Below are positions 4,896 through 32,404 of a stretch of DNA of 34,142 nt, in pieces. The position numbers and the translations under genes are program-made. How positions within the stretch are numbered: the stretch's first letter is position 1; every line of letters begins with the position of its first letter. This DNA is from a virus: the IMG/VR virus record IMGVR_UViG_3300031885_000069, positions 1 through 34,142 of that record. One strand, 5' to 3'. Under the pieces are notes generated by a model. It was not told the DNA's origin. It searched no databases and worked only from the letters and a program-made list of their open reading frames with translations.

Positions 4896-7800
4896 TTACA
4901 CACTATTTGTTGTCAAAACCTGTGTTGGGTTACTAGCCAAAGCAATTGTCAAGAGTGGATTACCTGAGGCCAACACACCATATTCTCTTGCGGTCAAAAC
5001 AATATCAATTACCTGGTTTGCTGGTGTCCGACTCAATACGTTTAGTTTTACACTCTGCACTCCAGTCACATTTGTCATCACTGCCTCAATGTCAGTAATC
5101 AAAATTGTACCACCGAAACTGGCACGACTTGTCAAGAAAGTACTCAACTCACTAGTGATGTCGATAACTATTGACGAACCATTGAACCCAGTGTCTATAA
5201 ATACATTGGCCTCAATTCTAATCGGAACTGTTACGGCAGCACGCACCAATACATCAGAAGTGAGTACCTTTTGATTATCAACAGGCTGTGCTACACTTCG
5301 CACTGCATTATTGTAGGTGTAAGATACTGTGATTAGCTCACCATCAAGAGGAGCAGCAAATGTGTAATCTACTAAATATTGAGCACCTGGTGCAGGTTGA
5401 TCTAGTGCCACAATACTGATTGTTTCAGTAGCAAGCTCTGCCTCCACTTTGTCAATTACAACTTGTGTTGTCACATTATTTACTGCATAGAAGCGGCTTG
5501 CCGTTACTTGTGTACCATTTTCGATAAACACTACCTCTTCACTATCGTCAAGATCCACAAATATCAAATCCGCCAACACCTCATCATTAGGATCAGGTGC
5601 AGATCGTTCTTGAATTACATTACCCTGAATCTTAATCTGAGTATCTCCTGCCGAGATAGCATCCGCTTCACCCATCACAAACTCGGCACTTTCCAAAAAG
5701 TCATCTACAGCCTTGCGCAGAATTACACTCAAAGCATCGTCAGTACCTACAGTAGTAAACGTGCTATTTCTGATACCCAGACCCTCGTTCTCACTATCCT
5801 CAATCAAAACTAGTGTTTTGTTGCTCTTTGTGTCATATCCTAGACTCAAAACATTATAGAGAACCTTATCTCGAGCAGGCGTCAAAAATAGCGAGAAATC
5901 TTCCAGCTTGGGAAAGAGAGGTGTTCGGTCAGCTGCAAATCCAGCATCATTTGTTGCCACGACAACCTCTATCTCAATTATGGAACCGCGTGGAAATATG
6001 TCAGTTCCAAATGACAAATCAAATGGTGAAGATGCATAAAAATCACCCATAAGTTGATCTGGCAAATCTGCCAAACTATTAGCCACCCTGAACCGCATTT
6101 TCACTTCCCCACTACCTCCAGTGGTACGCCAAACCAACTTGGTAAAATCAACCACTCGTTGTTCGTCAAATTGATATATTATCGATGTTGTCAATGGGAA
6201 GGGTGAAATGGCTGTACCTAGCGTTGTTGGCTTAAAATACAAGACATCGTAGATGCCCGCATTAGCGCCTGTTACTGGATTATTGAGCATCAGAGCCCTT
6301 GTGGTCGAATTAAAGCTAGCTGCTACTAGTCTTCTGTCTGGATTACTTGCCATCTGAATTATAACATCGGTGGGCAGACCAGTTGTGATTATTGGCAAAA
6401 AGTCGAGAATGATTGTCGATGTGCCTGCCGTTAGGGCAACTTCCTGTATGACTGGTGCACGACCTAAAAATACCAACCGAGGCTCTGTAGGATTGTAGGG
6501 GGTCACATACTTGACATAATTTTTACTTGCTGGACTATTGTCAGGAATTTCAAAATTATCAAACTCCGGCTGCCCGTAGAGTGGGTTATCAGAATAATTG
6601 GTTGTTTCTGGACCACCCACTGTGGCTGTTACCTCATGATCAGGATTGATAAAATTGTTCACTGCATTACCAAATTGCTCTACAATCAGTTTACGAGTTT
6701 CTGACAGTACCCAGAACGTATCAGTCAAATCCTGCTTGTACTGGAATCGATAGTAGAATGTCGAACTCCTGTCTACAGAGAACGACACGCGGAATGTGTT
6801 CTCTGCGATCTTCAACATTGTAACTGGTTCACGATTTGCCAAAGGTATACCACTACTCGAGACTTCTCTGATTTGGCAAAAGCCTCCTGGAACACCCGTA
6901 ACTGTGAAAATAACCTTGATATGCTGAATTAATATTCTGGTACCTGATTCATGTGCAGCAGAAACAGTAGCATTGTATCCACGAGTTACTGAAATCCGAT
7001 CGTTCAGCACATTTTGCACCTGCATAAACTCATCATCTATCTTGATGATGGCATTGACCTTGTAAAGAGTAGGTGTGATCACAACCAAAATTGTATCTGT
7101 AGCACTTGTGTCTTGTTTTAAGGTGTCTACTTCGGCAATTTCATTTTGTTCTGTATTCGTAATTGGCAAGCTCCACAAATCACTTGTCGATAAGTTTACT
7201 ACCGACTTGGCATCCTGTAGAACCGGGGATATGGCATATCCCGTAATCAAATCATTGGTAGCAAAGACGTAAGATTCTTCGACTGTGATACCATAGAACT
7301 GATTATTGTGGATTGTGTTGTTACGGAGGGCAACGACCGACAATTTGTTGATATCAAATGCACTATTACCATTGTCGTTGACTATGCTATTGTTGATAGA
7401 TCCGTTATCATATACAGCAAAAAAGTCTACAGTAATCACATTTGGATTGCCCGCTCTCAACGTAAGGAAATTTAAAGTCCGTTGGGTATTATAAAATGAA
7501 AGTAGGAATCCACCTCTTACCCTGTCGTACTCAATACCAAAGTCGGCATCAAAACCCGGGAATATTGGCGTGTTATCCACATAAACTTCATAATCTACAC
7601 CGTAGTTGAAGTTTACCACATACTTTGAGCCAAATCCACTACGACCGAGAGCGTCAGGTGTAACAAGTTCTTCAAAACCTGCCTTTTCAAATGGAGGCAT
7701 ATGGCCATCAGCAGTGGCAAATAAATCAGTAAAGCTCAAAGACAATGTCCGGTCCGAAACTTCTGGTCCGTAGCCATAACCATAACCATTTGTATCAAAG

Positions 7801-10800
7801 CGAAGTTCAACATAGCTTCTTCCCGTTGGAGTGAAGTCATTACCCAACAAACGGAAATTAGAATCGGTAAATCCTCGCATTGGAAAATAACTCGACGTTG
7901 CAGTATAGGATCCATCTAGACACTTCTTTATAATACAACGATCCAAAAATGGGTCAGAAGTGTTATTTTGAACACCGATACGGGCATACTTGATTACACA
8001 GTTCACCAGGTAGCTTGTTCCAAATGGATTTCCCACTGCATTTGTGTGACTGGTTGGATCAAAAATAATGCCCTCCCAATCGCCTGGTTTTGCAGTGGCA
8101 GCTGTGCTAGTAAATACAATCGGCGTATTCTCTGTAACATCCGGCGATACTTGTAATGTTCCTCTAACCCGAAGTGAAAGCCTTTTGGTTACCTCGACGA
8201 AATACTCCACTATGTAGTTAGTCTCAATTGCCAAACTGCCAACTAGAAATACATTTCGATCCTGATCATACGAGATATCAGTAAATATTGCATCGGGATT
8301 TGTTGATTGGAAAAAGCTAAAATCATCTGTTGCTGTACCCGTAGTCCGTGGTTTGCTTGTCAGTGGTATTCCATATTGCCCCCTACCACCAATAAGATTT
8401 GTCTTGGAAAGGAAGCTTGTTGTATTATCTCCATTATCTCGTCTGTAGCCAAGGAATGTACCCATCGTTACTATGGCTGCCACCAGGCCATTCCCTGTTG
8501 GAGTGCCCACAAAGTCTATTGGCACCGGTCTATCATTGATATAATAGTCATACGACGTAGGCAGACTTGCCAAATCCCGTTGTGCAACCACCTTTCTAAT
8601 CACATCACGATCGTAGTAAATTGTTATCGTCTCTGTTCCTGTCGTATTCAGAATAATGAAGAACGGCGCAGTACTATTGAGTGGTCGCTCAAAGACGTAG
8701 GCATTCTCAATAATGTTGGTTGCATTAGCAATATCATCAGACCCAATTGTATTGATCAGTATTGTCGACTCTTGAGTGGTTTGTACATTATTTAAAGACG
8801 CAGAATCTCTGAATTGTATTACGGTATTTGGTGAAATCACTACTAACACACCAGGTTCGATTATGACATCATCAGCTATCTCCACAATCCCCGATAAGAT
8901 ACCACTTGTTGAGATACTACCTGAAAGAATCGTAGGTGGTGATGTTACATCGTCTTCCTGACGCTTCACAGTAATTTGATCATTGCTAAAATCGGTAATA
9001 ATTGCATCGTAAGTAGGCGCAGGATTACCAAGTATATTATTTTCAAAATCGTTCGTAGTCGTCCAGTGTCTCATCAACGACTTACGACTAAGTAGAATTT
9101 TGTCTCCAACATCTACATGTCTTGTGTTGAGAGTACCATCAAGTAAAAACTCACTATCCCCCAAGGCCTCTACCACACGTACTGTTGGATCAAAAATATT
9201 GGTATTCAGTGCCATGTTTTCCAAGCTGTAGACAAATCCTTTTGTAAGATTTCTCACCGCCACCACCCGGCCAAGACGAGACTTGGAAGCTGTAGCACTT
9301 TGTGGTATTAGTGCACTAAACCAAAAATCAGTTCCAAACAGGGTATTTGGCTTAAAGGTAACAACTTGATCTGTGGCAATGCGAGCCTTATCGCCATGGA
9401 CTACCATATTATACTGGGCACGTGCTGTAAGTTGGTTAGCCTGCAACCCAAGATACGTCGGCATCAAAGGTTGAATTTGGAGATCAAGTGAGCTTTGCAG
9501 TGTTGTAACATCCAGTAATGTTAGACCCTTACTTTGCGGTCTTTCAAAGGGATCGCGAGCCCATTTTACAGTATCGCCTTGCAGGAAGTATTCGATATTC
9601 TGAAGATGAGATTCTCTCCAAGTGTAAGATATTTGAATAATATCACCAGCTTGAGGTATAAATCTACCTATCAACTGGATCTTTCCCAAGTTTGCATCTA
9701 GCAATTGGAAATCATAGTCAAATCCTAATCGAGAATGTCTAACCTGTGTAATCGTGACTACTGGCTGATGCTTTGTAAATATAGTGAATATGCCCTGACT
9801 CGTGCCCTGACTAGTAATGACGATGCTTTCCTTCGTTAAAATGACATCCTCATTCACCGCTAATAATTGTGCTACATTAGAATGAGCAAGTGTATCAGAA
9901 CCGTTAAACTCACTTCCTCTGGAGATTCCTTCTTGATTTACTGTTGCAACATTGGTCAACCAGAAAATACTATCCAATCCAAGAGCGCTATTTCCCCTAC
10001 CACTCGGTGCCACCTTTTCAATTAAAGAATATCTATTACTGATTGGACTAAGATAAGTAGCAACCTTAGTCTCACCTGTCGTATTGTCCCGAACTATCAT
10101 TATAGGTGAATCACCTATCTCTTGTTCCATATCACTGAGAAGTACGTAATTACCCGTTAGAATTACATTCCCCTCACTATCAGTAATTGGTTGTCCCTTT
10201 TTGAAATTTGCACCACTAACTGACCCAGTTAGATCTAAGATTTCCTCTATGGGTTGCTTAGCAAATATATTAGTGTCAGAAACTGTATCATAACCTAGTA
10301 CTAGATCATTTTGTGTTGTTACAGGTGTGCCATCGCTGTGGTCAACAAAACTGAGGGTTTCCGTGTTAGTGATAGGTAGGTCTCCTTTTATGTAGAGGTC
10401 TACCGAACGACCAGTGCCTGCCTTTATAAGATTGCCTTGAGCATCAAATTCTGATCCATCTCGAGTCATGAGAGGATCACCAGGACGAATTACAACAGCA
10501 TCAGTTACAGCAGGATTTGATAAGGCAATGGAAGTTAATCCTTCTACAGTACCCGAACTCGATCCACTAAGAACAAGTGTAATCCTACGACGCAGTGAAG
10601 CATCAGATTCACCATCTACTCCACCTACTGTTGGACTGAGATTGATTACAGTACTGATCCCAGGGATGTTTCCTCGGATAATGGCGTAGGGTCCCACGTT
10701 TCCTGTGCTACCAGAAAATAACGCTTGAATAGGTACTGTGGCTACATATTGTGCATTAGTAATTCCAGCAAGTTTGAGACTGTTATTTAATCTTACCGCT

Positions 10801-11219
10801 TCAGCCGCATAAAAATCTTTATCTATCGGTCGAAACACATGAGTACCCATTATTGCAAATTCGACCGTATTGATTTTTTCATTCGTGGCAACAGTGGTGC
10901 CATCGTTAACCGTAATACTAACACTTGCGACAGAAGAAGTGAACACAAGAATCAGTTCACCCACTGCTGCCCGTCCGGAATCACGGGTTAAGCCAAAATT
11001 GGAGGCTAATCTATCTAGGTCTGATCCTGTTGCCTCCGCTATTGTCTGGGCCTGGTTAATTGTATCTAGTGCATCATACAATTGAGATATCTGACCCGCA
11101 GGTGGATTGATGAGCACCTCTCTTAACACACTACCTGGTAGAGTATTAGCATTGGGCAAAACTGCTTGTATCTCTTGTATCAAATCACTCACGATGAGCT
11201 CTAGTGGACGTCCAACCAT
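4896..11219 (-). CDS. Giant gpJ-like baseplate wedge protein with beta-helix insertion
   Basis: This is a 2107-aa protein; the P2 gpJ class is usually 300-500 aa. Residues about 1-290 carry Baseplate_J features: the helical start 'LPGSVLREVLINPPAGQ', a segment 'ATGSDLDRLASNFGLTR', and the family hallmark 'GGVDGESDASLRRRI' at about 199-213. The last ~120 residues ('IEANVFIDTGF', 'GGTILITDIEAVMTNVTGVQ') match the usual gpJ C-terminal domain. The huge middle is beta-rich. Around 765-810 and 1010-1100 it contains right-handed parallel beta-helix signatures ('VIIEPGVLVVISPNTVIQF', 'NTPIVFTS', 'GDWEGIIF', 'CVIKYARIGV'), interrupted by about 220 residues. A GYGYGYG motif lies near 1145 and an 'IDDEFMQV...VTRGYNAT' unit near 1390-1420. 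The SD is GGAGAG. The gene follows the gp25-like gene, the classical gp25-gpJ order. The inserted domains are probably surface-exposed and may bind host glycans. Confidence 0.88.
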   Translation of the reverse strand: MVGRPLELIVSDLIQEIQAVLPNANTLPGSVLREVLINPPAGQISQLYDALDTINQAQTIAEATGSDLDRLASNFGLTRDSGRAAVGELILVFTSSVASVSITVNDGTTVATNEKINTVEFAIMGTHVFRPIDKDFYAAEAVRLNNSLKLAGITNAQYVATVPIQALFSGSTGNVGPYAIIRGNIPGISTVINLSPTVGGVDGESDASLRRRITLVLSGSSSGTVEGLTSIALSNPAVTDAVVIRPGDPLMTRDGSEFDAQGNLIKAGTGRSVDLYIKGDLPITNTETLSFVDHSDGTPVTTQNDLVLGYDTVSDTNIFAKQPIEEILDLTGSVSGANFKKGQPITDSEGNVILTGNYVLLSDMEQEIGDSPIMIVRDNTTGETKVATYLSPISNRYSLIEKVAPSGRGNSALGLDSIFWLTNVATVNQEGISRGSEFNGSDTLAHSNVAQLLAVNEDVILTKESIVITSQGTSQGIFTIFTKHQPVVTITQVRHSRLGFDYDFQLLDANLGKIQLIGRFIPQAGDIIQISYTWRESHLQNIEYFLQGDTVKWARDPFERPQSKGLTLLDVTTLQSSLDLQIQPLMPTYLGLQANQLTARAQYNMVVHGDKARIATDQVVTFKPNTLFGTDFWFSALIPQSATASKSRLGRVVAVRNLTKGFVYSLENMALNTNIFDPTVRVVEALGDSEFLLDGTLNTRHVDVGDKILLSRKSLMRHWTTTNDFENNILGNPAPTYDAIITDFSNDQITVKRQEDDVTSPPTILSGSISTSGILSGIVEIADDVIIEPGVLVVISPNTVIQFRDSASLNNVQTTQESTILINTIGSDDIANATNIIENAYVFERPLNSTAPFFIILNTTGTETITIYYDRDVIRKVVAQRDLASLPTSYDYYINDRPVPIDFVGTPTGNGLVAAIVTMGTFLGYRRDNGDNTTSFLSKTNLIGGRGQYGIPLTSKPRTTGTATDDFSFFQSTNPDAIFTDISYDQDRNVFLVGSLAIETNYIVEYFVEVTKRLSLRVRGTLQVSPDVTENTPIVFTSTAATAKPGDWEGIIFDPTSHTNAVGNPFGTSYLVNCVIKYARIGVQNNTSDPFLDRCIIKKCLDGSYTATSSYFPMRGFTDSNFRLLGNDFTPTGRSYVELRFDTNGYGYGYGPEVSDRTLSLSFTDLFATADGHMPPFEKAGFEELVTPDALGRSGFGSKYVVNFNYGVDYEVYVDNTPIFPGFDADFGIEYDRVRGGFLLSFYNTQRTLNFLTLRAGNPNVITVDFFAVYDNGSINNSIVNDNGNSAFDINKLSVVALRNNTIHNNQFYGITVEESYVFATNDLITGYAISPVLQDAKSVVNLSTSDLWSLPITNTEQNEIAEVDTLKQDTSATDTILVVITPTLYKVNAIIKIDDEFMQVQNVLNDRISVTRGYNATVSAAHESGTRILIQHIKVIFTVTGVPGGFCQIREVSSSGIPLANREPVTMLKIAENTFRVSFSVDRSSTFYYRFQYKQDLTDTFWVLSETRKLIVEQFGNAVNNFINPDHEVTATVGGPETTNYSDNPLYGQPEFDNFEIPDNSPASKNYVKYVTPYNPTEPRLVFLGRAPVIQEVALTAGTSTIILDFLPIITTGLPTDVIIQMASNPDRRLVAASFNSTTRALMLNNPVTGANAGIYDVLYFKPTTLGTAISPFPLTTSIIYQFDEQRVVDFTKLVWRTTGGSGEVKMRFRVANSLADLPDQLMGDFYASSPFDLSFGTDIFPRGSIIEIEVVVATNDAGFAADRTPLFPKLEDFSLFLTPARDKVLYNVLSLGYDTKSNKTLVLIEDSENEGLGIRNSTFTTVGTDDALSVILRKAVDDFLESAEFVMGEADAISAGDTQIKIQGNVIQERSAPDPNDEVLADLIFVDLDDSEEVVFIENGTQVTASRFYAVNNVTTQVVIDKVEAELATETISIVALDQPAPGAQYLVDYTFAAPLDGELITVSYTYNNAVRSVAQPVDNQKVLTSDVLVRAAVTVPIRIEANVFIDTGFNGSSIVIDITSELSTFLTSRASFGGTILITDIEAVMTNVTGVQSVKLNVLSRTPANQVIDIVLTAREYGVLASGNPLLTIALASNPTQVLTTNSV

Positions 11220-21400: not shown

Positions 21401-24048
21401 TGGTCTGCTCGCAGGGCAGGCTTTATCATTATACGGGACATGCTTAGAAATACCAAGTTGTCTCGACAGGAAACATGAATCTGATATTTGCCGTCGCTAT
21501 AAGTCTGTTTCACGGTAGAAATGATACCCTGGAAAACCTGTAATCTTTCCTCTTCAATCCCTCCATAACGGGACTCATAGTTGTTTATAATTTGTCTTTG
21601 TTGTTGCGAATCCCTACCTAATCCCTGTGAAAATGGCAACTTATCGAGCGTGCGTGCTCCCGTCATTGTATCCGTGCTTGCAGCATTCTTTTGAACGACT
21701 CTTTTGGTTTCCTCTATTATGGGAAGCTCATTTGTGAGGCGTATAGCATACGTTTTTGCTTGTTCAAACGTCAATTCAGGACCACCTTCCACATAGCTTA
21801 GAAGGTTTGAATTAGGCTTAAATTTTAGTTTTCCCAGATTTGGTGACAAGGGTACAAGGGATGCTAACGCTGCAGGATTCTTTAGGTCCTGCAGTCTGAG
21901 TCTGTCAGGGCTTGTTACAGTGGTTCTGAAAAAATCAAGTAGTCTCTTAAATTCACCCTGCATCAGTTGAATTTTTTCTTCAATAGAACGTATCTGTCTA
22001 CCCATCACAACCGCCGATGGATCTTCCAAGCCAAACCGGTCAGGATCCTGTCGATTTAGTCTAAATATAGTTCTCGTGGGACTTGTCATCCAGATATACA
22101 CTCTATCCAGTACCTGAAGGATGGTCTTGCTGACGTAATATTTAACCAAAGTCTGTCGTATCAAGCTCATATTGTCTTGCTTTTGTGTCGCCTGGCTGCT
22201 TGATGCTATATCTTGATCCACTTGTTGTTGTGTACTTGCAGACAAGCTATTGTTTAAATTGTCTTGTTGTTTTAGAAGCTCAGCCAAATCTGCTTCGAGA
22301 GATGCTTTTTTAGATATCAACTGCTGAACATCCGAGTCATTCATTAATGTTCTGCTGGCTACTAGCTGGGCATTTATAGCACGAATTTGTTGGGTAATAT
22401 CACTGATTTGACCGGCAATCTGTGTGGCCAGTGCTTGTTTGGTATTCAACAACCCTGTAGTATATCCCTTGCGTCGTAACAACATATCTACTATCTGGGG
22501 TGGATAAAAACGACCACGATAGTATACCATTCCATCTAGAGATCTTGAATCCTCCAAGAAAGGGAATTCAGATAGAGCCAAATCAACATCGTCTTGACTT
22601 ATGAAAAGTAGATTTTGTGGATTTTCAATCGTAAAGTTAGCGCTTCCTTCACCTTCGATATTTATAGAGGTGGTAATTTGTGATACGTTTGCCAACTCGA
22701 TAACGCCATTAAATGTCTCTTTGCCAACCTCAACTGCAACAGGTGCATCCAACTGCTGCGCTGCAAGTCTTGTGTTAAGTTTATCAAGTTGACGCCTGGT
22801 GTCAGCATATTCTAGTTGCGTCTGTAGTAGTTGCTCTTGTGCTCCAGCACGACCCGTCCGTGTCTGTTGGATAAGAGTATTAGATTGTTCGGTTAACTGC
22901 ACCAATGTTTGTGACAGTTGAGCTCGCAATTGTCTTGCCTGTGCATTCGAAACATTCTTAACTATGGGCGATTTGTAATAACGAGTATATGCATTGCCAC
23001 TAAACGTGGTGGGAGTGTATAATTGAACTGTGTCCGTATCATACGAATCAAGAGATGAATTCTGTGCCTTAGCAGTTGTTTCCGCTCGGCGCTTTTCCAA
23101 TTCTTGAATACGTTGTTGATTCCCTTGGATGTAATTTTTACGCAACACTACTTCTTGGTCTATTTCTTTTTTATCCGAATTTAAATTTGTAAGTATTTCT
23201 TGTATATTTGGAGGAAGAGGATTCTTACGCCATTCCTCCACCATCAGCTTGTCTATGTTTTGCGAAGCTTGTTCTAAACTTTGGATTTCTTGTTGAAGCT
23301 TGGTATTTTGCTTTTCAAGAGTAAGGATATTCTCATCGAGCTTGGCAATTTCTTTGTCAATACTTTGATACGAGTCCTGTACTGCTTTGATCGCTTGACT
23401 CTGTCTTTTTAACTGAATTGCCTCAACACTTTGATTATAACTAGCTGTCACTTTTGTAAATTTTTCGTGATCAGAAATTAGATCAAGTTTCCTAGTAATG
23501 ATATTAGCCAAAGCGCTGCGTATGTCAATTTGAGTAGTCTTTCCTGGAATTTGCGAAGACGACCCAGTTTGTGCCGCTACTTGTTCAGCAGCACTTATAT
23601 CGCTTTGTAATTGCTCTATTTGCTTCTGTTTGTTCTGCTCGTCAATTGTTAGCTGCTTCTGACGATCTGAAGGTAAATCAAGAGAAAGTCTTTGTCTGAT
23701 CTTAGTTAATTCTGCTTGCGCTACTTCTAAGTCAGATGACAAGACAGACAACTTTACCTTTTTAGACTGACCATCGCTCTTTATTGTAATTTCTGGATCG
23801 CTAATGACATATGTCCAGGTATCATCCAACCACTCTTTTTTTTGTATAAAGACCCATGCTTGAGGAGTATCTGCTGAACGAAACCCACCTTGACCTGGTA
23901 CCACTCTTCGACCAAGTGAAGGGTCGATTTTTTCAAGCTCACCAAATCGGATAGACCGCTCCGCAGGACTGCTTCTATTGAGCAGGGAATCTCCCTGATC
24001 AAAACTAGAATCTATAAACCGATCTTGTTCGCTATTTCTATTGCTCAT
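18451..24048 (-). CDS. Giant baseplate hub protein (gp27/gpD-like) with coiled-coil insertions
   Basis: This is an 1865-aa protein; gpD/gp27 hubs are usually 350-450 aa. Hub-type segments are scattered along it: 'FNGVIELANVSQITTSINIE' and 'ANFTIENP' near 446-477, 'VFQGIISTVKQTYSDGKYQI' near 838-857, 'ETPLSICRRAAEQVDFEFYA' then 'GNIQFKPPTY' near 1350-1390, and a C-terminal beta domain 'FRVGDCVFVECLGMYFYI' near 1770-1820. Between them are long Gln/Glu/Lys-rich coiled coils (about 105-160, 205-325, 365-430, 535-625 and 1580-1680). The pattern matches the late-control-D fold with helical arms inserted between its strands. It lies 6 bases after the 294-aa gene and is directly followed by the spike gene, the canonical order. 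A hub role is strongly supported by context; the function of the arms is unknown. Confidence 0.82.
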   Translation of the reverse strand: MSNRNSEQDRFIDSSFDQGDSLLNRSSPAERSIRFGELEKIDPSLGRRVVPGQGGFRSADTPQAWVFIQKKEWLDDTWTYVISDPEITIKSDGQSKKVKLSVLSSDLEVAQAELTKIRQRLSLDLPSDRQKQLTIDEQNKQKQIEQLQSDISAAEQVAAQTGSSSQIPGKTTQIDIRSALANIITRKLDLISDHEKFTKVTASYNQSVEAIQLKRQSQAIKAVQDSYQSIDKEIAKLDENILTLEKQNTKLQQEIQSLEQASQNIDKLMVEEWRKNPLPPNIQEILTNLNSDKKEIDQEVVLRKNYIQGNQQRIQELEKRRAETTAKAQNSSLDSYDTDTVQLYTPTTFSGNAYTRYYKSPIVKNVSNAQARQLRAQLSQTLVQLTEQSNTLIQQTRTGRAGAQEQLLQTQLEYADTRRQLDKLNTRLAAQQLDAPVAVEVGKETFNGVIELANVSQITTSINIEGEGSANFTIENPQNLLFISQDDVDLALSEFPFLEDSRSLDGMVYYRGRFYPPQIVDMLLRRKGYTTGLLNTKQALATQIAGQISDITQQIRAINAQLVASRTLMNDSDVQQLISKKASLEADLAELLKQQDNLNNSLSASTQQQVDQDIASSSQATQKQDNMSLIRQTLVKYYVSKTILQVLDRVYIWMTSPTRTIFRLNRQDPDRFGLEDPSAVVMGRQIRSIEEKIQLMQGEFKRLLDFFRTTVTSPDRLRLQDLKNPAALASLVPLSPNLGKLKFKPNSNLLSYVEGGPELTFEQAKTYAIRLTNELPIIEETKRVVQKNAASTDTMTGARTLDKLPFSQGLGRDSQQQRQIINNYESRYGGIEEERLQVFQGIISTVKQTYSDGKYQIHVSCRDNLVFLSMSRIMIKPALRADQGPAGLLQDPIWRGNELAGNWKNGIVVLDFAFVNDEVRARMDRNITIDAGVQSNLLKKKVLSEKEAKEGGVTPFVTSLPFAKIDAADLVSFIITGFPYNFGLFLKNAAFGGRTTFQRTDGTTDQRSEGTSFFAFLKRRIGELNDRLGDFEPFIDLAGDQFDPKVFQIRKDQLTSAQGMALTDLNNAYIAYISNRMQRFLLRLQERKEGLTFHNAEGFLDVVEQALQPLLSQDVLKKQIDIAQHYTNKNQFSLFVDQGTSFILNILAKIVTDAAMNNNSFQAGPNQVSTAVGTQLGTESNFENVATIITTSLLKGTQIGAFQVMANLAIEEAKVVEKSSKNGGVRTGPSQATSSNVPGAQQEAVLKIAQEALMPFVRSLLLVQAGFSQEYVSASIASTNLASLARIEPALHEYLDDIRSQSASVQADIKDGPQSTLEKIVRAEKKNFLIISDQYELDFDLQAYQTQIGQDFALWQSEWETPLSICRRAAEQVDFEFYADENGNIQFKPPTYNRILKEHFPLISETDRNVRNAILIRYGGTYGQVLRVVLRAVALLNQTKVEFSSKRLSAVNALELSRAAQRKRGSIPTQGDVAGDSTNSTTQSLQYAKSEEITSAYQELVDRTVQQTKDGSTVCDRNAWVPISASIQAEQEAQKNIRLLHTTEDRGLTDINIDLESQKEEDNVFHLGHDKVSANTQLQKLEEELKNAEEADPQNPQLISKLQTTIVETNSELASIQSQINNTSFIADQRKLKRKVDLYTTLSHQIDSLLTQANSTRERVRQQAKSFVDGLERFTDECRIHRIADYDMISYELTEAPPRFTYLEVTGAPELVQITPAEYYWAGGVDYDNWRQYGYISENMQKAYFHSGDQARTYIRAMLGRERGRIFTASTSVRGDSKFRVGDCVFVECLGMYFYILSVSQSLTYGGSYTTNLALSYGRRIGEIIPHPFDALGKIMIETYQNDVEELLARQQFTKQQQGKSNKQT

Positions 24049-24953: not shown

Positions 24954-27938
24954 CTACACAGCAGAATATCCTTCACCCGTATCACCGTGTGGATAGGAAG
25001 AGAAGGCTGCTGGTCCACCTGCAATCACACCTCCTGCGATGAGAAACCTAACTTGCTTATTTACAAAAAGACCATTCTTTTCCGAAATATCAACAACCAC
25101 TTCTTTCCGAATACTCTCTGTTGGCGCAGCAGCGGTTTTCTTTTTACCTGCTGCATCGTTGGCTTTTCTTTCTTGTATAGCTTGATCAGCCGATGTGTCT
25201 CGCATAGCTTTCTGCGATTGCCGTTCCGTTGTTTGGTCGACCGCTGTATCTCGCATAGCTTTCTTCCACTTCCACTCTGTTATTTCTTGATCTATAGTTT
25301 GCAGTTCTTTTTCCTGAGTCGTCTTAAATGCAGCAACTTCGATTTTTCTAAGTCTTTCGAGAACTTCTTTGTCTTGCTGTCCTACCGCCTTCCATCCCTG
25401 ACCTATAGTAGGCGCTGTCTTTGCTTCATTAAGAGCCGTCTGCCGCATAACATGACCTTTTGCTGCTTCTAGAACAGACTGGTACCTAGTGTCCCGCAAC
25501 CTTTGCTCATCCGAAGAAAGTTTGTCTCCTCTCCTTATCTTTTCGCGCAACTGGTAGGCTTGCTCATTATTTAGACCGATAAACTTTTGTACGGATTTGG
25601 TACTCTCCTGTATGCTTAGTAGGTGCTTATTCATGGTACCAGTAATTTTTTCTTCTGTCTTTCGGCGCTCCAGAGCAGCTGCTTCAATTGATTTTGCAGC
25701 AATGGTAAAAGCTGTACCTACGGTTAGAGCTATCCAACCAACAGGGCCAATGGCAGCAAGCAGAGTACCTATTCCTCCTGCAAACGAGCCAAGTGCCCCT
25801 TTCAATGCTGGACCAAAAGCAGTAACATTCATTGTAAGTAGCCGTAGTACACCACCAGCTGCTTGTCCTTGAGTTGCTACCCCACGAAGAGCTTCACCAG
25901 CTCCTGCTCCTCCTTTTGCACCCCAGGCAGCCCATCCTGTCGCAGCAGTGCTGGCTGCACCACCTGCTACTGCACCTCCTGCTCTAAGTGCACCACCTGC
26001 TGCTGATTCGGCAAGACCAGCACCAGTACCACCAAGTCGAATCAATCTTCCAAGGAAATTCCCAAATGTGGCACCTAAACTTCTTTCTACAGTACCACCA
26101 AGAGCACGACGCAGCATGCCACCAAATGCGTCTCCTATAAATTTGGTTATTCCTACACCTAACAGAACTGTTCCTATTGCTGTTACCCAACTAGTACCGA
26201 TCACCTTACCAATCGCTTTACCAACACCCTCGACTGTGGGGACAACAGTGTTGTCAATCGTATCAGTCAGCCCCTTCATCTTTTTTTGAAATACTTCTGT
26301 ATCGAGACCCTTTCCCGTAGATATTGATGTCATTATGTCGGAAAAATCTTTTCCGAAGCCACCTGCAGCTCCAGCACCTCCAGCTACCCCACGGATAAAA
26401 GCCAGAAGCACTCGACCAACTAACGAACCAATCAGCTCCAGTATCCTTGCTATCTTTTCTTGAGCTGTTAGCGTCGCGGCACGATATTCCGCCTCTCCCT
26501 TCTCCATATCTTTCAGAGTCTTCTTCGTCTCTTCTGCTTTTTTCGAGCTGCCCTGACCAGTTGCGTTCAACTGCTCCATTTCCTTTACCAGATTAAGGTA
26601 AGCTCGGGCGTCGTTCTGAGAAAATCCGAATGTCTGCGCAGCAAACTTTTCTTGTCCTAGTCTAATAGACGCCAGCTGGTCATCTGTTGCTGCTTGTCCT
26701 TCAGAAATGATCTCACCAGTACCGCCCATCAACCGGCCAACCACTTGGCCGATCTGCTGTGCCATCTCGGCTCCACCAGTACCACCAGCTTTTTGGCGGA
26801 ACTGGAACCCAGCAGCTAAACCACCACCCATTCCCATCTGTTGACCAAAGAATGCCATTTGGCCAAAATCCATCTGTGCCATTCCTGCTATTGCCTTACC
26901 CATCACTTCAACAGCAGCACCAGCACCTACTCCAGCCTTTTCTGCAACCTGACCAGCTTTCCCAATCATTTCTGCAGCAGCAGACGAATCTAGACCCAAG
27001 AATTTGAACGAAGACTGCATCGATTGCAATATAGGTAGCAATGTGGCTGTTGATAAACGAGACTTTCCAGCAGCTAAACTCAATGAAGCGAAGGATTTTA
27101 CGGTACCTTCAACATTACCACCTAATGTCTTGACTTGCATCTGCAACTGACTGATAACTTGACCCTGCTCAAGGCCAGTAACTCGTGCAATACCAACCGA
27201 GGCAGATAAGGCACCCCATGTCTTGGCGTTTTTCCCAACCGCATCACTTAGGCTGGAAATCTTTCCTGTTTGTTTATCTATCCCCATTTCTTCCATGGAG
27301 AAGCCAACTTGACCTAAATTACCCGCTAATCTCTGAAGATCCTTAGATGCTATACCAACTCGCTGGCCATATTGTGCAAATCCTTCGCTAATCGCAAGAG
27401 TTGCACTATCTGCTAATTTTAGTCCCTCGGCATATCGACCAGTAGCAGCAGATAGATCAATAATAGATTTATTAACAACTTGGATTCGATCTTGGAACTT
27501 GATCGCTTGACCTACCACAAAGCCAAGGGCCAAGCCAAGATTCTTGGTATGAGGAGTCACAGCACCAAAGTGCTGAATAGCCTTGCCCAGATCCATTTCC
27601 TTGGCAAGGCTTTTTGCAGCCAATGCACCCTGAGTAAGAGCATTAGCCAACTTCTCGTGCTTTTCTTTTAACTTCTCTATCAGAGCAATAAGTGTCTTAT
27701 TCTGAAGGGCCAGTGTTTCTAGATTGCGGCGCTCTTCTTCCGCACCATCTTTTCTTTCCTTCCGCAGCCCTTTAGTTGCCTCAATTAATCTATTTACATC
27801 TGCTAGTTCTGAAGCACTAATATTAGGGTCTGCCTTCATTCGATTGAGTTGTTCCAGAGTTTTACCTAAGGTTTGAGCATTAGTATTAGCGCTTGCTATT
27901 TGAGCACTTATGGCGTTTATATCATCTCTTAGTGCCAC
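24954..27938 (-). CDS. Tail tape measure protein
   Basis: This 994-aa protein, by family knowledge, fills the tube lumen and fixes tail length. At roughly 0.15 nm per residue it would suit a tail near 150 nm (estimate). The start is GTG at 27938 with AGGAG 7 bases upstream. Residues 1-95 are a charged coiled coil. Ala/Gly-rich helices with small-residue motifs fill the middle. Hydrophobic segments able to span a membrane lie near 585-605 ('WVTAIGTVLLGVGITKFIGD') and 720-755 ('GIGTLLAAIGPVGWIALTVG'). The tail end is charged, with a 17-residue repeat ('KAMRDT..DQ'). It directly follows the chaperone pair, the conserved position for this gene. Confidence 0.92.
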   Translation of the reverse strand: MALRDDINAISAQIASANTNAQTLGKTLEQLNRMKADPNISASELADVNRLIEATKGLRKERKDGAEEERRNLETLALQNKTLIALIEKLKEKHEKLANALTQGALAAKSLAKEMDLGKAIQHFGAVTPHTKNLGLALGFVVGQAIKFQDRIQVVNKSIIDLSAATGRYAEGLKLADSATLAISEGFAQYGQRVGIASKDLQRLAGNLGQVGFSMEEMGIDKQTGKISSLSDAVGKNAKTWGALSASVGIARVTGLEQGQVISQLQMQVKTLGGNVEGTVKSFASLSLAAGKSRLSTATLLPILQSMQSSFKFLGLDSSAAAEMIGKAGQVAEKAGVGAGAAVEVMGKAIAGMAQMDFGQMAFFGQQMGMGGGLAAGFQFRQKAGGTGGAEMAQQIGQVVGRLMGGTGEIISEGQAATDDQLASIRLGQEKFAAQTFGFSQNDARAYLNLVKEMEQLNATGQGSSKKAEETKKTLKDMEKGEAEYRAATLTAQEKIARILELIGSLVGRVLLAFIRGVAGGAGAAGGFGKDFSDIMTSISTGKGLDTEVFQKKMKGLTDTIDNTVVPTVEGVGKAIGKVIGTSWVTAIGTVLLGVGITKFIGDAFGGMLRRALGGTVERSLGATFGNFLGRLIRLGGTGAGLAESAAGGALRAGGAVAGGAASTAATGWAAWGAKGGAGAGEALRGVATQGQAAGGVLRLLTMNVTAFGPALKGALGSFAGGIGTLLAAIGPVGWIALTVGTAFTIAAKSIEAAALERRKTEEKITGTMNKHLLSIQESTKSVQKFIGLNNEQAYQLREKIRRGDKLSSDEQRLRDTRYQSVLEAAKGHVMRQTALNEAKTAPTIGQGWKAVGQQDKEVLERLRKIEVAAFKTTQEKELQTIDQEITEWKWKKAMRDTAVDQTTERQSQKAMRDTSADQAIQERKANDAAGKKKTAAAPTESIRKEVVVDISEKNGLFVNKQVRFLIAGGVIAGGPAAFSSYPHGDTGEGYSAV
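25198..25262 (-). repeat. 51-base near-tandem repeat in tape measure gene
   Basis: The 14-base block TCTCGCATAGCTTT occurs at 25198-25211 and 25249-25262, exactly 51 bases apart. It encodes 'KAMRDT' in two consecutive 17-residue units near the C-terminus of the tape measure protein. Confidence 0.6.
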
Positions 27939-27952
27939 ACCACTTCTCCTGT

Positions 27953-28321
27953 TTAGGTGTTAGCTTTCACAATATCTTGTCCAAGTTGTTGTATCGATTT
28001 CTTTTTTAGTTCTGGTGAGATGTCACTTCCAAGCCCTCTACCAAACATTCTTTCCAGTACGCGATTGAAACCTGCATCTGGCATTCCTTTAGAATGGCGA
28101 CGAGCTTCCTGAACTTTCTCGACAGATTCGTTGTCCCAAAACCGTGCAAGATACTCAATCCTATCACGCCACATCTCTTCTTCATCCAGCTTATCCTTGT
28201 GTATGAGATGTGCGTAGGCCAACATTTGAATCAACGACATGGTCTCAAATATTGGATCGTCTAGAGTCTTTCCAAGTGCCTTACATATGTCCCAGCGGAG
28301 CCTCATATGAGGCTCCTGCAT
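27953..28321 (-). CDS. Tail assembly chaperone, downstream (T-like) frame
   Basis: This 122-codon frame is mostly helical and charged ('LRWDICKALGKTLDDPIFET', 'IHKDKLDEEEMWRDRIEYLA'), typical of the second half of the gpG/gpGT-type tail assembly chaperones encoded just upstream of the tape measure gene. Its ATG overlaps the upstream stop (TGATG), but no Shine-Dalgarno lies at a useful distance. It is in the -1 frame relative to the upstream gene with a slippery heptamer immediately before the junction. It is therefore most likely made only as the C-terminal part of a fusion of about 362 aa (239 + 1 + 122). The tape measure start follows 14 bases after its stop. Confidence 0.85.
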   Translation of the reverse strand: MQEPHMRLRWDICKALGKTLDDPIFETMSLIQMLAYAHLIHKDKLDEEEMWRDRIEYLARFWDNESVEKVQEARRHSKGMPDAGFNRVLERMFGRGLGSDISPELKKKSIQQLGQDIVKANT

Positions 28322-28330
28322 CAGTTTTTT
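28297..28330 (-). promoter_or_regulatory. -1 programmed ribosomal frameshift signal
   Basis: On the minus strand the codons CTA AAA AAC TGA end the upstream chaperone frame. The heptamer A AAA AAC (28330-28324) is a canonical X XXY YYZ slippery site. After 7 bases (28323-28317) comes a perfect palindrome (28316-28297) able to form an 8-bp GC-rich stem, GGAGCCTC / GAGGCTCC, with loop ATAT. Slippage by one base enters the downstream frame as CTG ATG CAG, in register with the 122-aa protein. Heptamer, spacing and stem all match known -1 signals of tail chaperone genes. Confidence 0.88.
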
Positions 28331-29040
28331 AGTAATTCACCATCCTCTGCAGCTGATTGGAACACTTTCTCAGAACGCTCTAAAATCTTACCATACTCAT
28401 CGAAAAGCTTCACTGTAAAGGCCAATTGCCATGACTTCAAGACAAAAAGACGTTTCTCAGTTGCTTTAATGGGAGAACCTTCAGGATGCTTGTCGGGACC
28501 TTGATACAGATTCTCAAGTGAAACACCATTTACAAGGCGAATGGCGCGTGCAAGAATCTGGAGCCGCAATTGTCCCAACTTCACCAAGTCATCACCTGAT
28601 ACCAGTGAAATCGCAGCAACAACATCGTCTTGCTCACCCGAAGTGAGAGAAGCCAGCTTAAACTTGAAACCACCAACAATAATATCTTCCTCAATACGAC
28701 CGGCTGTTGTCAATAGACTAAGATCGGACTGAAGTTGTTGTGGCTGCACAACCAGTTGTGGTTGTGGTTGTGGAATCTCAACAGCAGGAACTTCAACTGC
28801 TGGTGTAGATGCGGAAACTGTAACTGCACTTTGAGACTCAAGCTCTTTACGAGTCATTTCATTTAGATCCTTCATTCTTTGGTAGGAAGCAGCGAACTTC
28901 TGCTCTGGTGGGGCTGGACCGCCTGAACGTTGTCCAGCAATAGCATTTCTAGTGGAAGGTCTTTGAGGAGCACCTCCACTCGTTTCATCTGTTTGATCAT
29001 CAATACGGAGTACTTTTCTTTGTGCTTCTTGCCTTTCCAT
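28321..29040 (-). CDS. Tail assembly chaperone, upstream (G-like) frame
   Basis: This is a 239-aa protein. The frame is open from a GTG at 29091, but the ATG at 29040 is preceded by a near-perfect ribosome-binding site (AGGAGGTGATC) about 10 bases upstream that would lie inside the longer reading, so the shorter start is chosen. Residues about 1-115 look disordered and Gln/Pro/Val-rich ('PQPQPQLVVQPQQLQ'). A folded domain follows ('IIVGGFKFKLASLTSGEQDD' onwards), resembling chaperone N-domains that bind the tape measure. The protein ends LLKN-stop directly on the frameshift site. Genes of this type sit between tube and tape measure in tailed phages, as here. Confidence 0.82.
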   Translation of the reverse strand: MERQEAQRKVLRIDDQTDETSGGAPQRPSTRNAIAGQRSGGPAPPEQKFAASYQRMKDLNEMTRKELESQSAVTVSASTPAVEVPAVEIPQPQPQLVVQPQQLQSDLSLLTTAGRIEEDIIVGGFKFKLASLTSGEQDDVVAAISLVSGDDLVKLGQLRLQILARAIRLVNGVSLENLYQGPDKHPEGSPIKATEKRLFVLKSWQLAFTVKLFDEYGKILERSEKVFQSAAEDGELLKN

Positions 29041-29137
29041 GAAACGATCACCTCCTAAAAAATTTAACAGGACTAAATGAGTGGTTAGCACATCTTAGCC
29101 ATCTCACAAGTCCAAACTTTCTTGTTTGTAAATAGAT

Positions 29138-29175
29138 GTGCAGAATATCGGATATAAATATCCGGTATTCTGCAC
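29138..29175 (-). promoter_or_regulatory. Strong imperfect hairpin between tube and chaperone genes
   Basis: A 38-base inverted repeat: outer arms GTGCAGAATA / TATTCTGCAC (10 bp), one mismatch, inner arms CGGATAT / ATATCCG (7 bp) and a 2-base loop that would open wider in RNA. It lies in the 105-base gap after the tube stop. No T-tract follows on the minus strand, so it is not a standard intrinsic terminator. It could stabilise the abundant sheath-tube mRNA, act as an RNA-processing site or attenuate readthrough into the chaperone gene. Because it is nearly symmetric it could also be a protein-binding site in DNA. Confidence 0.6.
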
Positions 29176-29196
29176 GATCCGTCACTTACTAATTAT

Positions 29197-29874
29197 TTAC
29201 GGAGCAACACCTGGAATAGGTGGAGTAATGAACGACTCAGCCAACGTGTTAGCATAAGGCGAATCATTATGGCTACGCTCTGCTGCATCATCACCACCTG
29301 TTGCAATCTGACTGCCGATTGGTTGATCAAACACATGCTCTGCCTCAATCGTTGCAGTCTCTGTGATGATATAGTTATCAGCAGTAAATGGAGTGGAATA
29401 CCTAGCAAGCCAACAATTCACATATCGTGTAGTTAGCATGAAGTTTATTGCCGTGCCAGGTGTTGTGCCGATTTCCCAGTAAGGATTGTAATCCTTGACC
29501 TGGATATCAAAAGGTATACGCTGTGAATGAATATGACGGAAGCCACGCTGGAACGCAGCGGGGAGTCTCTGATAATCAAACACAATACGGGTAACTTCCA
29601 TTGTTACTGTTACGAAACTGGTAGGTGTAATCTCAATCACTGCATCCGTACCAACTTCGCCGATTCTCTGCAGAGGACGTGTCTCTGTTGGAGTCAAGTT
29701 CTGAATTGCACCGATTGTATAGAACCGACCATCGACGCCCTGTGCTTCGATAATGATTTGAGTAGATAGGCCGACTTGGAGTTTCTTGTCATGTAGTGGA
29801 GAATTCACTCCACCACTAGGAGTTACTCCTACCTGGCCCGTCTCTTCTCTACGCCCTAAATTTGTGATAGGCAT
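29197..29874 (-). CDS. Tail tube protein
   Basis: This is a 225-aa protein, within the range for myovirus tube proteins. It is beta-rich throughout, with 'KLQVGLSTQIIIEAQGVDGR' and 'IGAIQNLTPTETRPLQRIGE' near the start. A central helix-like segment 'FDYQRLPAAFQRGF' follows, then further strands ('FDIQVKDYNPYWEIGTTPG', 'TRYVNCWLARYSTPFTADNY'), the layout of the tube beta-barrel. A strong SD (AGGAGG) precedes the ATG. It lies 19 bases after the sheath stop; sheath followed by tube is a near-universal order in contractile tails and makes the call secure. It should be one of the most abundant virion proteins. Confidence 0.88.
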   Translation of the reverse strand: MPITNLGRREETGQVGVTPSGGVNSPLHDKKLQVGLSTQIIIEAQGVDGRFYTIGAIQNLTPTETRPLQRIGEVGTDAVIEITPTSFVTVTMEVTRIVFDYQRLPAAFQRGFRHIHSQRIPFDIQVKDYNPYWEIGTTPGTAINFMLTTRYVNCWLARYSTPFTADNYIITETATIEAEHVFDQPIGSQIATGGDDAAERSHNDSPYANTLAESFITPPIPGVAP

Positions 29875-29893: not shown

Positions 29894-32404
29894 TTAGAGA
29901 ACTCCAATACTAAACTGAATGAAGATCCAGTTCAATGGGAACACAGGTGCAACATCAAAGCCAACATTAATCTGGCGAGGTTCGATCGGATCGATCTTTG
30001 CCGATATATTTTGATAAGCCGTAATGATGCGCTGTGTAACCAATGACTCAAGAAGACTTCGAGTTACTTTTGCTACATTGTCAACTGTCTGTTCCTCGAT
30101 GACTGTACCAACGAACCGCTCATCCAGAATTGTACGAGCAGACTGAGCAACATAGTCGCGAATACGTACCACTGAAGGTTCTTCCTCAACTGGATTGCCA
30201 CTTTGAACTGTCGTAATACCATAAACGATCCTACCGCCCGAACTCAATGGATCGACAACGGTAAGACCTCCATCACCAAGTAGATTGAGCTGATCAATTG
30301 TATATTTATGATCCTTCTCAATATCAAATCCCACCAGACTCTTCCTGGTAAGAGGTGTTGGAAGATAAGGAATACCTGCAAGAAGACCAGCACCGCATGC
30401 AGCTAAGTATTGGCCATCAATATAAGCTGTCTCACCCGCAATAACCGTACGAATCCTCTCGGGGAAGAAATATACACATCTGAATGACTTACCAAACACT
30501 CTTGCAACACCAATTTGAGGATCCAGAACCTGATCGAATCCATATCCCTTATATGCACCAGCAAACAGCATTCTTTCTCTCCGCTGACGTATTGAAGACA
30601 TGAACTCGCAATGAGCCAAAGCTACAGTTTGCACTGAAGCCACCAAATCAATGTCTGGCTCGTAGTTGGCCACCACATGATCACCATCGACCAGTGCCGT
30701 AACCAAATTGATTCTTGTTGGTTGTGTTGCACCTTGACATATATACTGAAGCGTATAATCAATGCCTCTTACTAAGAGCTGACCATTCTTGAATACCTCT
30801 AACCGAAGAGGACTACCCACTTCGTCACAGGCCAAAGGATAAATATTAATACCAGGTTGATCACCACCACCTGGCGTTTCCTGTAGGAATGTTCCATTGC
30901 CCGTGAGAGGACCCATGGTTACCATGTCAAACTTGTTGACAAGTACTTCACCAATCACATCTCTCTGAGCGAGTGGAACCACGAAGTTGATGTCTTCCTT
31001 CTCTAATGCCTTGAACGCATCACTCCAGAAGATATCTGTGATAAATCGACCAAACACTGGATCCTTTGTTGTACCAGCATGGATTGCACCAATCACAGGA
31101 GCACCATTCAGGCTTGCCATAAAAGCAGCTTGTGAAATCGTATTCTCTGGAGATGGGAAGCCATGCTTTGCGTACAAATCTGTGAGATCAAAGAACAATT
31201 CGAACTCATTCAGGTCGTTTTCAGGTAAGAAAATTGCAATCAACCTGTCCTTCTGTGTAAGTGCATGATCCAGAATAATCTGTCCTGTCTGGTAATCAAC
31301 ATAATAATGCTGACGCTCTGGAGCACCTACAACTGGAACGACATTGTATCGCCGACCAGCTGCTGTATTAAAGAAACCAGAACCATCATCAGTCCCACCG
31401 TAAGCATCGAGACCGAATTTGTCCTCATCGATCAATCCTGCACCATCGATCCCGTAGAGATCGTACGACACACCAAAATTGCCCTTATTGATAAACTCGC
31501 GGAACAGGATATCCTCGAGTGGATAAGCTGTTAGTATTGGCCACAATGTGACATCGCCATCATATGTGATCTCACCAGTTCCGCCAAATGAATTGGTTTC
31601 ATTCTTTCCAATGGTGAAGTAATCAGCCGTAGGACCAAGTACGGGACCAGTACGCTCAATACTGAAGAAGTACAATTTTGACTCTGTTAGCTTAGCTGTC
31701 TGAGCTGGTATTGTCAGATCGAATGTTACATCGACCCAATGAGAACCAGGAGTAGCATATGCAAGAATACTTGCATTAGGAACCAATAGGGTGGCTAGTT
31801 CTGTACCAATACCTGCTGGCTTGTTTGCCCCATCGGCAGGCCAAATCTTCACGAGAAGATCGTCGACTGGAGTGCCAACCTTAGCCAACCATAACTGCAA
31901 CTTAGCAAGACGGCCAGATGTACCAGGACGGAATCCTTGTACAACAACTGAATTGCTAGCTGCTGAACCAATATTCGCGTGGTTTTGAAGCTCGGTAGGT
32001 GGAATTGCAGAATCACCATTGATTCTGTCAATCTGTGTAACTCGACGAATGCCAAACTCGTCAGCCCAAGCAGACCCCTCGGTGGGGTCAGTAATTTCGA
32101 TCATCGGAACATCTGTACCATCATTCTTTGGATTGAGATACAGAGCGACTGATCCGGGAACGACCGGAGCCCGTGTTAGCAAGAAGTGGCGACCATCAGG
32201 TTCAAGGCGAGGATCGAACTGCATTGGAAGGCCATCCTTACCTCCACCCTCTGCAGATTCGACCAGAACCAGCTCTCGCTGGCCTCGACCCATCAACGCT
32301 AAAATAGTCGGTCCCCCCGGCAATGTTACCGATCCCTGCCGACTCCTCACTAACGTGAAGACCCCTGGAATCATGAAACCAACTATGCCTGGAATATTGG
32401 GCAT
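29894..32404 (-). CDS. Tail sheath protein with inserted carbohydrate-binding-like domain
   Basis: This is an 836-aa protein; sheaths are usually 350-700 aa. The N-terminus ('PGVFTLVRSRQG', 'GGPTILALMGRG') and the C-terminal third ('IDGQYLAACGAGLLAGIPYL', 'LTRKSLVGFDIE', 'GITTVQSG', 'VRIRDYVAQSARTILDERFV') carry the conserved sheath core that connects neighbouring subunits. Residues about 148-303 form a beta-sandwich-like insertion ('VVQGFRPGTSGRLAKLQLWL', 'DLLVKIWPADGANKPAGIGT', 'WVDVTFDL') that resembles carbohydrate-binding 'choice-of-anchor' type modules and would sit on the outer surface. Residues about 365-600 add more beta units ('YYVDYQTGQIILDHAL'). The SD is AAGGAGG, 6-7 bases before the ATG. 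The tube gene follows. The sheath itself is secure; the inserted module is inferred from pattern. Confidence 0.9.
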   Translation of the reverse strand: MPNIPGIVGFMIPGVFTLVRSRQGSVTLPGGPTILALMGRGQRELVLVESAEGGGKDGLPMQFDPRLEPDGRHFLLTRAPVVPGSVALYLNPKNDGTDVPMIEITDPTEGSAWADEFGIRRVTQIDRINGDSAIPPTELQNHANIGSAASNSVVVQGFRPGTSGRLAKLQLWLAKVGTPVDDLLVKIWPADGANKPAGIGTELATLLVPNASILAYATPGSHWVDVTFDLTIPAQTAKLTESKLYFFSIERTGPVLGPTADYFTIGKNETNSFGGTGEITYDGDVTLWPILTAYPLEDILFREFINKGNFGVSYDLYGIDGAGLIDEDKFGLDAYGGTDDGSGFFNTAAGRRYNVVPVVGAPERQHYYVDYQTGQIILDHALTQKDRLIAIFLPENDLNEFELFFDLTDLYAKHGFPSPENTISQAAFMASLNGAPVIGAIHAGTTKDPVFGRFITDIFWSDAFKALEKEDINFVVPLAQRDVIGEVLVNKFDMVTMGPLTGNGTFLQETPGGGDQPGINIYPLACDEVGSPLRLEVFKNGQLLVRGIDYTLQYICQGATQPTRINLVTALVDGDHVVANYEPDIDLVASVQTVALAHCEFMSSIRQRRERMLFAGAYKGYGFDQVLDPQIGVARVFGKSFRCVYFFPERIRTVIAGETAYIDGQYLAACGAGLLAGIPYLPTPLTRKSLVGFDIEKDHKYTIDQLNLLGDGGLTVVDPLSSGGRIVYGITTVQSGNPVEEEPSVVRIRDYVAQSARTILDERFVGTVIEEQTVDNVAKVTRSLLESLVTQRIITAYQNISAKIDPIEPRQINVGFDVAPVFPLNWIFIQFSIGVL

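Follow-up and report, generated by a model that had tools for sequence, protein, structure and literature searches.

In phage lambda, a -1 slip near the end of a tail assembly chaperone gene, 5' of the tape measure gene, yields a short (G) and an extended (G-T) chaperone. Both products bind the tape measure protein, T recruits the tube subunit and the ratio of the two matters (PMC5009743); lambda-like G/G-T -1 frameshifts in other long-tailed phages have been reviewed (PMC5009743). The closest named relative of the locus described here is found in Bacillus phage G (JN638751), where both gp181 and gp182, located beside the tapemeasure gene, carry the annotation tail assembly chaperone; the CDS of gp182 is joined from two pieces and overlaps gp181. 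Among the relatives, phage G was the only cultured one encountered. We analysed IMGVR_UViG_3300031885_000069, a 34-kb virus fragment of 34,142 nucleotides (the window), for which an earlier note had claimed a -1 frameshift signal fusing two tail chaperone frames.

All parts of the frameshift site are located on the minus strand, which had not been given in the earlier note, and the site reads 5' to 3' GAA TTA CTA AAA AAC TGA TGCA GGAGCCTC ATAT GAGGCTCC. The slippery heptamer A_AAA_AAC (28330-28324) is in phase with the upstream chaperone gene and directly abuts the zero-frame stop TGA (28323-28321), as had been claimed. Likewise, the spacer of 7 nt that separates the heptamer from the stem (TGATGCA, 28323-28317) and the perfect, GC-rich 8-bp stem-loop GGAGCCTC-ATAT-GAGGCTCC (28316-28297) were found as described; the latter is a perfect palindrome of 20 nt and, from folding, pair counts and a synonymous null, a putative stimulatory element. 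Behind the heptamer, the -1 frame reads LMQEPHMRLRW... and, as noted before, enters the 122-aa open reading frame that begins with ATG at 28321; counted from the first -1 codon, the T-like extension comprises 123 residues (28324-27953). The predicted G-T fusion would have its junction after residue 239 and a total length of 362 aa.

The hairpin has an energy of -18.1 to -18.5 kcal/mol (-18.5 for a 40-nt stretch), with a z-score of -4.5 against dinucleotide shuffles and -5.9 against synonymous shuffles. The 18 genes of the window contain 46 in-phase heptamers of the type X_XXY_YYZ, and only the A_AAA_AAC site has an 8-bp stem 4-10 nt further downstream; the runners-up have 7-bp stems. A second in-phase heptamer, A_AAA_AAA at 23842 (minus strand), is located near the start of a 1865-aa gene and is followed after 9 nt by a 7-bp stem; as a frameshift site it was set aside, a -1 slip there reaching a stop after 4 codons. 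No match to an Rfam family was obtained. Upstream of the slip site, AGAGGA (28331-28350, minus strand) ends 12 nt 5' of the heptamer in a position that resembles that of internal Shine-Dalgarno stimulators, and its anti-Shine-Dalgarno duplex amounts to -9.5 kcal/mol. A conserved stimulator of this kind 5' of the slip site was not found in the family, which with -4.33 kcal/mol did not go beyond the synonymous null (-3.86 ± 0.33 kcal/mol).

On the minus strand the genes are ordered sheath, probable tube, G, T, tape-measure-like protein, tube-initiator-like protein and baseplate genes; thus, as in the lambda class, two adjacent or overlapping reading frames, the second in the -1 frame, lie between the tube and tape measure genes. 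The 836-aa contractile tail sheath protein (29894-32404) matched the PHROGs tail sheath with E = 3e-20. The 225-aa probable tail tube protein (29197-29874), encoded between sheath and chaperone, gave a weak PHROGs match and is 80% identical to the syntenic protein of a relative, L002. The upstream, gpG-like chaperone of 239 aa (28321-29040) starts with ATG at 29040 behind the Shine-Dalgarno sequence AGGAGGTG, has a predicted fold that matches chaperones and was aligned with 40 relatives (alignment A9). Directly after T follows the gene of a 994-aa tape-measure-like protein with a GTG start (24954-27938), in the place of the phage G tapemeasure gene; the protein, which had no match in Pfam or PHROGs, is the expected client of the chaperones. 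The non-coding leader 5' of the chaperone gene (29041-29196, minus strand) contains a long hairpin, GTGCAGAATACCGGATA..TATCCGATATTCTGCAC, as well as the block GAAAGTTTGGACTTG..GGCTAA..TTAGTC..GTTAAA, which was found conserved in L002. This leader is possibly a terminator plus promoter, or a leader element; its best Rfam match, cow-rumen-4, was below threshold (E = 0.16). Positions 4896-11219 of the minus strand encode a Baseplate_J protein (E = 6e-16) that contains a weak beta-helix match; its 2107 aa are unusually many for a baseplate wedge protein.

The structure of the G protein was predicted with a pLDDT of 82 (core above 95). Its best match in the PDB was the HK97 tail assembly chaperone 2ob9 (probability 0.98, E = 0.036), albeit a modest one, with a TM-score of 0.56 by target length, and on this model the first protein has a chaperone fold. 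Unlike the HK97 protein, with which it shares 11% identity, the window G has an additional N-terminal part of about 100 residues, predicted with low confidence. Among viral structures, the predicted G matched annotated tail assembly chaperones as well as gp181/gp182 of phage G. For T, a helical domain was predicted, with phage G gp182 as the viral structure that matched best; T had no usable match in PHROGs. Gene order, homology to gp181/gp182 and the predicted fold together support the assignment of the upstream protein as a tail assembly chaperone.

Single-protein searches of viral contigs with window T and G gave no match, nor did window T match the phage collection. Searches with sheath and tube revealed one relative, L002 (sheath identity 70%), whose T protein was used as the entry point to the family. 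A profile search then yielded six further loci, phage G was reached by tblastn, and a wider T profile (A7) gave 60 loci on contigs of up to 497 kb. These locus searches used protein only and presupposed neither heptamer nor stem. Together with the window, the 60 loci make up 46 distinct contexts, with two near-duplicates, and the relatives are not mutually independent. Their T proteins are 23-50% identical to window T. The protein search and a DNA-only search (see below) together gave 98 contigs, some of them from giant phages. A scan of bacterial and archaeal genomes gave no relative, so that collection contains no indication of a prophage.

An in-phase slippery heptamer was present in all 46 contexts, 45 times canonical and once near-canonical (G_GGG_GAA). 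In 42 contexts it was A_AAA_AA[ACG] at the identical position (A_AAA_AAA in 21, A_AAA_AAC in 18 and A_AAA_AAG in 3), always 27 nt 5' of the codons for the conserved R[LI]RW; the other four have T_TTA_AAA (3) or G_GGG_GAA (1), one codon upstream. A zero-frame stop follows the heptamer position directly in 38/46 contexts and one codon later in seven, and the spacer is 7 nt in every context with A_AAA_AAN and a GGAGCC-type stem. In L002, for example, A_AAA_AAA TAA is followed, with a 7-nt spacer, by GGAGCCG..CGGCTCC. The members with T_TTA_AAA or G_GGG_GAA (L065, L066 and L068 at about 1480-1510 and L067 at about 660-680) are divergent and still have the stem in place. Since they replace A_AAA_AAN one codon upstream and keep the stem, the slip site has been swapped during evolution, with a spacer of 10 nt. 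The comparison of heptamer and stem in relatives, which had been proposed earlier as a check, therefore found both elements and the 7-nt spacer kept, yet the T proteins are no more than 23-50% identical.

Most relatives have 6-7 consecutive As at the site, which could also be read as a site of transcriptional slippage, at which mRNAs with an extra A would encode the fusion. Six or seven As are short for slippage by a bacterial polymerase, however, and the divergent T_TTA_AAA and G_GGG_GAA sites fit the heptamer rule of ribosomal slippage and not a dependence on homopolymer length. In addition, an RNA stem at a constant distance downstream is the design of ribosomal sites, and we regard slippage during transcription as very unlikely.

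The core of the stem, 6 bp, is complete in 38/46 contexts and has five pairs in another five; at least five of the six pairs are formed in 43/46. When 44 distinct rows were aligned, 95.8% of the cells of the core stem were paired, compared to 25-53% in a control in which the partner was slid by 1-3 columns. Changes on both sides were seen for two core pairs and for five pairs of the extended stem; in L002, the seventh pair is G-C instead of T-A, both codons having changed silently. For the family alignment, RNAalifold gave a thin consensus of -0.67 kcal/mol, perhaps caused by outlier rows that break pairs, and explicit pair counts were used in its place. The stem represents a putative downstream stimulatory RNA structure of the kind that is common, albeit not universal, in the lambda G/G-T class.

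Since the stem overlaps codons of conserved residues (EP...RLR), the hairpin could reflect nothing but these codons, and the heptamer merely an A-rich gene end. When the stem codons were swapped for synonyms according to each locus's own codon usage, however, on average only 154 of 270 pairs were kept (153.7 ± 5.5, with a maximum of 173 in 1000 runs), while 259 were observed, and none of 500 synonymous versions of the window hairpin folded as well. This shows selection on the stem beyond protein constraint. Moreover, a DNA-only pattern (TAAAAAAN TN6 GGRGYC N8 GRCTCC) searched in 2.9 million viral contigs gave 78 matches, and in 78/78 the -1 frame fitted the T profile at E < 1e-3, so the signature is specific to the T gene. 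A chance origin of the signal can, for practical purposes, be dismissed. Silent sites are presumably near saturation among the loci, because their T proteins are only 23-50% identical to window T. In the stem, not only the pairing pattern but almost a single sequence (GGAGCC/GGCTCC) is conserved, and the stem might hence be read by a protein, either by chaperone feedback on the G:G-T ratio or by another phage factor; if true, the tail-chaperone frameshift would be regulated and not run at a fixed rate. We consider this improbable, and the conserved EP...RLR codons would be a simpler cause of the sequence conservation.

The earlier note had also stated that the downstream ATG has no useful ribosome-binding site. 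Indeed, its anti-Shine-Dalgarno duplex was weak (-2.8 kcal/mol, compared to -11.5 kcal/mol for the upstream gene), but scores weaker than -5.5 kcal/mol were obtained for 8 of the 18 window genes, T included, and, therefore, a weak Shine-Dalgarno sequence proves little by itself. Because the T-frame ATG overlaps the upstream stop (TGATG), translational coupling needed a separate test. Stop-start overlaps often couple genes, and ribosomes that stop at the TGA could restart at the overlapping ATG to produce a separate 122-aa T protein with no frameshift; TAATG or a nearby ATG is also seen in a few relatives (e.g. L023, L029 and L062). A conserved start codon at the upstream stop, as expected of a coupled pair, was not found: in 37 of the 46 distinct contexts, the T frame contains no ATG, GTG or TTG from the upstream stop to the conserved RLRW, and where a T-frame ATG exists, its position varies (-18, -15, -6, -3). 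Relatives that lack heptamer and hairpin and make two separate proteins, which the earlier note had named as the refuting case, were thus not what was found, but the opposite. Coupling, furthermore, requires neither heptamer nor stem, yet both are kept, and the window ATG lies 2 nt 5' of a strong stem. Termination-reinitiation as the source of T hence has a very low probability. As in the lambda G/G-T class, the second reading frame of the family probably lacks independent initiation, the window itself having an ATG with a poor ribosome-binding site. Since most contexts have no T-frame start codon, the TGATG of the window is most likely incidental, although some coupled synthesis of a separate T may occur in the window's phage.

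Among named phages, phage G has the site closest to that of the window. The G and T proteins are homologous (G fold match with E = 9e-8; the T protein of L002 is 33% identical to gp182 over 67 residues), the T-like extension of the window corresponding by homology to the -1 part of gp182. The order sheath, further gene(s), G, G-T and tapemeasure is as in the window, and A_AAA_AAC is followed by TAG. In contrast to the GC-rich 8-bp stem of the window, phage G has a weaker CGAC/GTCG-type stem, with an energy of about -6 kcal/mol in phage G and its near relative, and its T extension has 252 residues instead of 123. With lambda, the window shares the -1 slip site near the end of the chaperone gene, 5' of the tape measure gene, and a short and an extended chaperone. 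The lambda heptamer is G_GGA_AAG, whereas the window family mainly uses A_AAA_AAN with a stem at a fixed distance of 7 nt, and the phage of the window is contractile-tailed. No sequence similarity of the window proteins to lambda-type families was found in Pfam and PHROGs. Judged from its sequence, the window site is a new, divergent member of the lambda G/G-T frameshift class and not a new mechanism, and it is unexceptional among known tail-chaperone frameshifts.

The conservation of the signal, the missing T start codon in 37/46 contexts and the identity of the chaperone thus support the claim of a frameshift signal fusing the two frames, and two tail assembly chaperones are very probably produced from one start by a programmed -1 ribosomal frameshift. 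Most ribosomes would read A_AAA_AAC, stop at the adjacent TGA and release the gpG-like protein of 239 aa. A minority would be delayed by the hairpin, which begins 7 nt further on, and slip: the tRNAs in their P- and A-sites would re-pair with the A run shifted back by one base, and translation would continue with CTG ATG CAG... to give the 362-aa G-T fusion. By analogy to lambda, the G part may form a coat on the tape-measure protein and the T part may recruit tube subunits, the ratio of G to G-T being set by the slip site. We infer the occurrence and frequency of slippage as well as the function of either product. In E. coli, A_AAA_AAC and A_AAA_AAA are less shift-prone than A_AAA_AAG (PMC5009743), so that the rate at the window site could be low.

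For proteins that have no significant Pfam or PHROGs matches, these findings allow a confident annotation as chaperone and chaperone fusion, in a group of divergent phages that includes contigs of over 300 kb. Since T is usually without a start codon, gene callers are prone to miss it or to misplace its start, and the DNA signature (heptamer, 7 nt, GGRGYC-8-GRCTCC), which was correct in 78/78 cases, is usable for annotating such genomes. Across this family, one frameshift geometry has stayed constant, with no more than 23-50% identity between the second proteins of the homologues.
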